A DNA stretch of 64,000 nt. Origin: an uncultured Opitutales bacterium (GTDB taxonomy: Bacteria; Verrucomicrobiota; Verrucomicrobiia; Opitutales; Intestinicryptomonadaceae). The stretch covers positions 1-64,000 of the forward strand of contig CALXQW010000004.1 of NCBI GenBank assembly GCA_944390805.1, in the 5' to 3' direction. Below are positions 60,675 through 62,258 of this stretch, one piece after another. Position numbers and translations under genes: made by a program. The notes beneath the pieces were generated by a model. The model ran no database searches. It saw only the letters and a program-made list of their open reading frames with translations, and was not told the origin of the DNA. Position 1 is the first letter of the stretch, and the number at the start of each line of letters is the position of its first letter.

Positions 60675-61226
60675 TTAGGCCTCTTTCTTGTCGGCCTCAG
60701 CAGCAGGCTGCTCTGCCGCCTCTGCGGCGGGAGCCTCAGTCTTAGCTGCCTTCTTAGCCGTCTTTTTGGCAGTCTTCTTAGCGGCCTTCTTAGCCGGAGC
60801 CTTCTTGGCAGCAGCCTTCTTAGGCTGGTCCTTATAGCCCTTGTCGTCCGCCTCTATGAGCTCTATGAGAGCCATATTTGCAGCGTCGCCCGCGCGGGGA
60901 ACAAGCTTGTATATGCGAGTATACCCGCCCTTGCGCTCGAGGAATTTCTCAACCTTTTTTACAAAGAGCTGATAAACGGCCTCGTCGTCGCGAATTCTGG
61001 CAAGAGCCATGCGGCGATAGTGAAGCTTTTCAGCTTTGTCCTCGGTGGCAGCTGCCTTCTTGGCCAAAGTTATAACTTTCTCCGCAAATGGACGAAGAGC
61101 CTTCGCCGCGCTGAGAGTTGTTTTGATTCTGTCATGACGGAAGAGTGCCGCCGCAAGGGAGGCCATCATCGACGCGCGATGCTCTTTCTTCACGCCCAAT
61201 GTGTGAGTATGTTTGCTGTGACGTAT
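60675..61226 (-). CDS. rplQ: 50S ribosomal protein bL17 with Lys/Ala-rich tail and apparent ATA start
   Basis: 183 residues if started at ATA 61226. The reading frame upstream of the nearest accepted start (TTG 61199) reads RHSKHTHTL in frame directly onto GVKKEHRASMM, the conserved L17 beginning (family MRHRK...LGR...HRxAM), and an in-frame stop (the rpoA TAA) lies 7 codons before it. No ATG, GTG or TTG is available, so AUA is the apparent initiator. The core ends near residue 130; the last 50 residues are a KKAAKKTAKKTAKK-like repeat and acidic Ala-rich tail. Gap to rpoA 21 bases; no Shine-Dalgarno. Confidence 0.9.
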   Translation of the reverse strand: MRHSKHTHTLGVKKEHRASMMASLAAALFRHDRIKTTLSAAKALRPFAEKVITLAKKAAATEDKAEKLHYRRMALARIRDDEAVYQLFVKKVEKFLERKGGYTRIYKLVPRAGDAANMALIELIEADDKGYKDQPKKAAAKKAPAKKAAKKTAKKTAKKAAKTEAPAAEAAEQPAAEADKKEA

Positions 61227-61247
61227 TTTCTGAAATATTTTTTGTTG

Positions 61248-62258
61248 TTATTGGATTGCAGGAGTGGAAGCCGAATCTATAAGACGCTCGTCTATCTTCA
61301 TGCCGAGTGAAAGCCCAAGCTGCTCGAGCTTGCTCTTTATCTCGTTCAAGGACTTCTTTCCGAAATTCCTGTATTTTAGCATCTCCTGCTCGCTCTTCAT
61401 TGCAAGCTCGCCTACGGTGGTTATGTTGGCGTTGTTCAGGCAGTTTGCCGCGCGAACGGAAAGCTCAATCTCATTTACGCTCATATTGAGCAGCTTTCTG
61501 AGCCTGTTCTGTTCCTCGCTGACCTCCTTGCCGGCCGACTCAAACTCTATCTCCTGATCGTTTATTTTGTCGAAGAGATCTATGTGGTGCTTGAGTATTA
61601 CCGCAGCGTCTTTCATGGCCTCGTCGGGAGTGATTCTGCCGTCGGTGGTTATCTCAATGGTGAGCTTGTCAAAATCCGTCATCTGGCCAACGCGCGTGGC
61701 TTCCACGCCGTACTTTACCAGCTGTATCGGACTGAAAAGCGAATCCACCGCTATAACCCCTATGGGCTGATCCTCATATTTGTTCTCCTCGGCGGGTCTC
61801 CAGCCTCTGCCTACCGAAATCTCCACTTCGGCTACAAAGTGCTTCTTGGTGTCGAGCGTGCAAATAACCTGCTCGGGATTGACAATCTGTATATCGGCGT
61901 CGGGCTGTATGTCGGCGGCTGTTACCTCGCCCTCTTTCTCGACGTCTATCATCAGGCGCTTCTTGTCTCTCGAAGCGCTCTTTATCTTGATCTTCTTGAG
62001 GTTGAGAACTATCTCAGTAACGTCCTCGACTATGCCGTCAACGCTCTGAAATTCGTGGTCAACTCCCTCTATCTTGATGGAACTGATTGCCGCACCCTCT
62101 ATCGAACTGAGAAGAACCCTGCGCAGAGCGTTGCCTATCGTGTGTCCGAATCCCGTTTCAAAAGGCTCGGCGATAAACTTAGCGTAGGTGTCCGTAGCCG
62201 TGGCCTCGTCCTTAACGAGGCGCTTCGGCAATTCAAATTTTCCAAGGCGTTTTGCCAT
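61248..62258 (-). CDS. rpoA: RNA polymerase alpha subunit
   Basis: 336 residues. N-terminal assembly domain with FETGFGHTIGNALRRVLLSS and C-terminal domain ELSVRAANCLNNANITTVGE that binds UP elements and activators. GGAG precedes the ATG by 5 bases. Part of the alpha operon, 41 bases after rpsD. Confidence 0.99.
   Translation of the reverse strand: MAKRLGKFELPKRLVKDEATATDTYAKFIAEPFETGFGHTIGNALRRVLLSSIEGAAISSIKIEGVDHEFQSVDGIVEDVTEIVLNLKKIKIKSASRDKKRLMIDVEKEGEVTAADIQPDADIQIVNPEQVICTLDTKKHFVAEVEISVGRGWRPAEENKYEDQPIGVIAVDSLFSPIQLVKYGVEATRVGQMTDFDKLTIEITTDGRITPDEAMKDAAVILKHHIDLFDKINDQEIEFESAGKEVSEEQNRLRKLLNMSVNEIELSVRAANCLNNANITTVGELAMKSEQEMLKYRNFGKKSLNEIKSKLEQLGLSLGMKIDERLIDSASTPAIQ

Follow-up and report, generated by a model that had tools for sequence, protein, structure and literature searches.

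An ATA codon at the conserved start position of rplQ, the gene for ribosomal protein L17, in an uncultured Opitutales bacterium

The usual carrier of AUU and AUA start codons is infC (IF3), where these starts are conserved and regulatory and serve the autoregulation of IF3. The rplQ gene considered here has an ATA codon at its start position and no usual in-frame start upstream, which would place it in the same class of non-AUG, IF3-sensitive starts on genes of the translation machinery. Unlike the infC case, however, the ATA is found in one genome only, and ATG is the start codon of infC in this lineage.

In S. aureus, AUA starts are established for infC, ccpN and, in a lineage-specific manner, citZ (PMC13009471). 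The AUA sites tested in that organism gave approximately 10% of the AUG level, with ccpN reaching up to 30% in rich medium, and the non-canonical sites of infC, cvfC1 and ccpN have an extended Shine-Dalgarno (SD) sequence (PMC13009471). For the citZ AUA, which belongs to the NCTC 8325 laboratory lineage, ribosome profiling revealed use of the codon and a reporter was employed to test it (PMC13009471). A reconstruction of start codon evolution lists no AUG to AUA switch among 61,358 ancestral AUG starts and one AUG to AUU switch (PMC5622118), although annotation habits may hide AUG to AUA cases from such a reconstruction. From the rare S. aureus precedents and the reconstruction, this kind of start is known and rare, and rplQ would be an unusual carrier. 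A close parallel is citZ, in that both are housekeeping genes whose start reads AUA in one lineage. In contrast to citZ, rplQ encodes a stoichiometric ribosomal protein, is read here from the sequence and has no SD; the extended or strong SD of the characterized S. aureus AUA cases is thus missing.

The window, a stretch of 64,000 nucleotides, carries an alpha operon on its minus strand in the order of ribosomal proteins S13, S11 and S4 followed by rpoA and rplQ. The features of the locus are collected in Table 1. On the minus strand, rpoA ends with GCA ATC CAA TAA (TAA at 61250–61248) and is followed by CAA CAA AAA ATA TTT CAG AAA, giving a leader of CAACAAAAAATATTTCAGAAA before the ATA codon 21 nt after the stop. 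The leader holds an additional in-frame ATA at 61238–61236. After the leader, the minus strand reads ATA CGT CAC AGC AAA CAT ACT CAC ACA TTG GGC GTG, in which the codons 3' of the ATA encode RHSKHTHTLGV, the conserved beginning of L17. Beyond the TTG, a further usual in-frame codon is GTG 61193, an internal valine codon of L17. The preliminary description had placed the ATA at 61226–61224 at the expected L17 start position, seven codons after the in-frame rpoA TAA with no ATG, GTG or TTG between, and had named TTG 61199 as the first usual in-frame start; the sequence, coordinates and frame all bear this out.

Table 1. Features of the rpoA–rplQ junction in the window.
Feature	Position	Strand	Remarks
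rplQ (ribosomal protein L17)	60675..61226	(-)	read from ATA 61226; 183 codons and stop; lysine/alanine-rich C-terminal tail
ATA codon at conserved L17 start position	61224..61226	(-)	ATG in the sister and relatives
TTG, first usual in-frame start	61197..61199	(-)	L17 codon 10, conserved leucine codon; the sister has the same
Intercistronic leader, 21 nt	61227..61247	(-)	A-rich, without Shine-Dalgarno, predicted unstructured
rpoA (RNA polymerase alpha subunit)	61248..62258	(-)	TIGR02027, 383 bits; same frame as rplQ

The identity of the gene is well supported. Its product matches the L17 model TIGR00059 of NCBIfam with 104 bits against a cut-off of 70 and PF01196 with 103.5 bits against a cut-off of 27, the reading frame is otherwise intact across its 183 codons, and the gene lies directly 3' of rpoA. 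It is also the sole L17 match in the assembly (2.30 Mb, 41 contigs, approximately 90% complete). Compared to the sister genome, rplQ has a dN/dS of 0.065 with a dS of 0.56, while its neighbours range from 0.006 to 0.050. As judged by these ratios, rplQ has been under purifying selection until recently; thus, the loss of the ATG is either young or not real. The L17 tail, encoded at 60678–60820 of the window on the minus strand, is long, rich in Lys, Ala and Pro (AAKKAPAKKAAKKTAKK...) and lies outside the L17 domain. The length of the L17 open frame differs among relatives.

In the alignment, the ATA falls exactly in the column that holds the ATG at which L17 starts. In the single congeneric genome compared (G001, an uncultured Opitutales bacterium, referred to as the sister), rplQ starts at ATG and the start reads ...TTTTCAGAAAATGCGTCACAGC. 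The two L17 proteins are 95% identical, with the 12 residues after the start codon unchanged, and the DNA is 90% identical over 846 bases. Among the loci read at this column, drawn from 22 other related genomes and 26 loci of a genome collection that partly overlap, every complete L17 locus has ATG with the exception of GTG in a distant zetaproteobacterium. A pattern for the L17 start was then validated on the window and these loci and scanned against 378 genomes of the phylum; its third base was open and its first two bases were fixed as AT, so that GTG and TTG starts go uncounted. True L17 starts were identified in 53 other genomes, all in the order of the window, and all 53 have ATG. ATA at this position occurred in this genome only, the five extra matches being clearly due to chance. 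A search of viral contigs found no relative. Among the genomes compared, the ATA occurs in this assembly alone and is neither a conserved feature nor a conserved control. The contigs of this genome and of the sister, although from separate assemblies, are each interrupted a short way upstream of the S13 gene; contig C4, which holds the window, ends at 64,665 and the counterpart break in the sister is the start of its contig C37.

To place the ATA in a genome-wide context, approximately 1.22 Mb of this genome was set against 1.45 Mb from the sister. For 492 of 511 orthologue pairs in which both upstream ends were visible, the two genomes have a common start codon at about the same site. In 424 pairs selected more strictly, a start loss was defined as an ATG facing a non-start codon, with conserved residues following and no alternative start, and rplQ is alone in losing its start with nothing to replace it. 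AUA thus does not serve as a general start codon here. For the sampled genes, its genome-wide use as a start was rejected, as the other mismatches of ATG with a non-start codon have a usable start nearby, either with an extra methionine beside a common start or with another N-terminal start, or are shadow frames. Reassignment of AUA to methionine was likewise rejected. Of about 7,700 ATA codons in this genome, 6706 align with isoleucine in the sister, and the genetic code is thus standard. ATA is the dominant isoleucine codon, at 69% (7761/11240) in the compared genes (approximately 1.2 Mb sampled). A conserved regulation of the IF3 type was not seen, given that infC has an ATG start both here and in the relatives. 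The comparison of rplQ starts that the preliminary description had proposed therefore returned ATG in the sister as well as in 53 further genomes of the order, a single distant GTG and no second ATA; together with the uniqueness among 424 pairs and the ATG of infC, this does not sustain AUA initiation as an established or regulatory feature.

Two readings of the codon carry nearly all of the weight. The first, which is favored at a probability close to even, is that this is an ordinary alpha-operon rplQ in which a recent ATG to ATA change occurred in this lineage only, with L17 most likely still started at that codon. The change would be a single G to A transition, a simple substitution in a region where this genome and the sister differ at approximately 10% of bases. 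Against it, L17 is a stoichiometric ribosomal protein, and a weak start should therefore be strongly disfavored by selection. As read from the sequences, the codon also lacks an SD, is absent from the sister and other relatives, and amounts to one base of one assembly built from metagenomic DNA.

These same points feed the second reading, which is given a probability somewhat short of even: the ATA may be a consensus error of assembly or sequencing, or else a strain allele, in the minority or not fixed, that was taken up into the consensus, with most cells of the species carrying ATG. The ATA is seen in one metagenome assembly while the sister and the order have ATG, and the change would be costly in a gene needed at full stoichiometry with no compensating SD. 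The case was also picked by scanning many genes, a procedure that enriches for rare errors, and one start loss in 424 pairs is a number similar to the one clear frameshift in the assembly. On the other side, none of the window genes compared is clearly broken, and the assembly has 41 contigs, the longest seen being 186 kb, with 0% estimated contamination; the fairly long contigs and the absence of estimated contamination suggest decent coverage. The change is also an ordinary transition between genomes that are about 10% different at this locus, a divergence at which changes of this sort are common. A real but weak start and an artefact or minority allele are thus nearly equal in weight, with a slight lean to the real change. 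With respect to the frameshift, the affected gene (G000:C1, about 1200–2115) is intact in the sister and shifted near position 1757 in this genome, either as a pseudogene or through assembly error. Most flags raised by the broken-gene scan are non-coding stops in the upstream part of stop-to-stop frames, and the C1 frameshift alone was taken as clear.

If the change is real, it would show that a highly expressed and probably essential ribosomal protein gene can run on one of the weakest natural start codons without an SD, and the locus would be a natural experiment on the extent to which coupling to an upstream gene rescues initiation. If it is not real, missing starts in conserved genes of metagenome assemblies deserve to be checked in the reads. 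In both cases, a gene caller that accepts only ATG, GTG and TTG would place the L17 start at the TTG and so annotate a shortened protein.

Under the favored reading of a real ATG to ATA change, initiation would proceed through the initiator tRNA, which would read AUA with a C-A mismatch at the third position and place fMet at reduced efficiency. It would be aided by the A-rich, unstructured leader and by ribosomes that reach it from the stop of rpoA, 21 nt upstream. The reality of the base, the use of AUA, the contribution of coupling and the lower efficiency are inferred in this account. The 47 nt around the ATA have a predicted folding energy of 0 kcal/mol. The absence of an SD before the ATA, as had been noted in the preliminary description, was upheld on reading the leader. 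A core SD motif is present at only 25% of 353 start sites of this genome (positions −20 to −4), compared to 12% in shuffled leaders, so the missing SD of rplQ is ordinary here. No 16S rRNA, from which the anti-Shine-Dalgarno sequence could be read, was found in this assembly.

Since the leader is A-rich, unstructured and only 21 nt long behind a stop codon, it is possible that rplQ translation is coupled to that of rpoA. In translationally coupled pairs, re-initiation is helped by an SD but does not require one, drops with distance and is lowered by excess IF3 (PMC2268962). The rpoA–rplQ pair resembles these in the short gap behind the upstream stop and differs from them in its ATA start. At 61242–61250 of the window (minus strand), where the sister has a tandem in-frame stop, TAACAATAA, this genome reads TAACAACAA. 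With the sister's second in-frame TAA lost, only one stop separates rpoA from rplQ.

This arrangement bears on readthrough of the rpoA UAA, by which L17 would be supplied as an alpha–L17 fusion. Although rpoA and rplQ are in the same frame and this genome (TAACAACAA) lacks the sister's second stop (TAACAATAA), the shared frame is not constant among relatives and a bulky fusion at the N-terminus of L17 is implausible, leaving this with a negligible probability. Readthrough of UAA is normally very low.

Translation might instead begin at TTG 61199 or GTG 61193, the first usual start codons in the rplQ frame, giving an L17 that lacks the first 9 or 11 residues. These are internal leucine and valine codons that are also present in the sister, whose start is the upstream ATG, and the order conserves the residues missing from such a product. 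There is also no SD before TTG 61199. Thus, while the preliminary description was correct in its naming of the TTG, a start at either codon is very unlikely, the TTG being a conserved internal leucine codon.

A start could in principle be restored in the mRNA by TadA, which would edit AUA to AUI to be read as AUG. The AUACGU sequence holds the UACG core motif and the genome encodes tRNA-Arg(ACG), on which TadA normally acts; however, UACG arises automatically when ATG-CGT becomes ATA-CGT. The site, ATACGTC, differs from YTACGAA at 3 of 7 positions, and no stem-loop resembling an anticodon arm is present around it, where the minimum free energy is 0 kcal/mol. Sites that deviate by two or three bases make up 5% of known TadA sites, and single changes to the motif abolished or nearly abolished editing in two transcripts tested (PMC12255301). 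With both the fuller YTACGAA motif and the stem-loop missing, restoration of the start by editing is unlikely in the extreme.

A last candidate concerns the initiator tRNA. The three G-C pairs of its anticodon stem are highly conserved in all domains according to a review (PMC7949028). One may speculate that A29-U41, which replaces the first of these pairs here, is linked to start selection. By extension, the ATA would be real and working without an SD for the abundant L17, tolerated through the laxer start discrimination of an A29-U41 tRNA; this is improbable, and a counterpoint to such laxity is that no other AUA start was seen in 424 gene pairs. The anticodon arm of this genome's initiator tRNA was identified in all 28 matched genomes among relatives, this genome included, and, using a pattern that left positions 28–30 and 40–42 open, in 53 of 53 matched phylum genomes, while 6 of 59 gave no match. 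As A29-U41 is phylum-wide, it cannot by itself explain the ATA of one genome. The initiator tRNA of this genome (G000:C2:77761–77837) has an anticodon stem of A29-U41, G30-C40 and G31-C39, and carries a C1-A72 mismatch.
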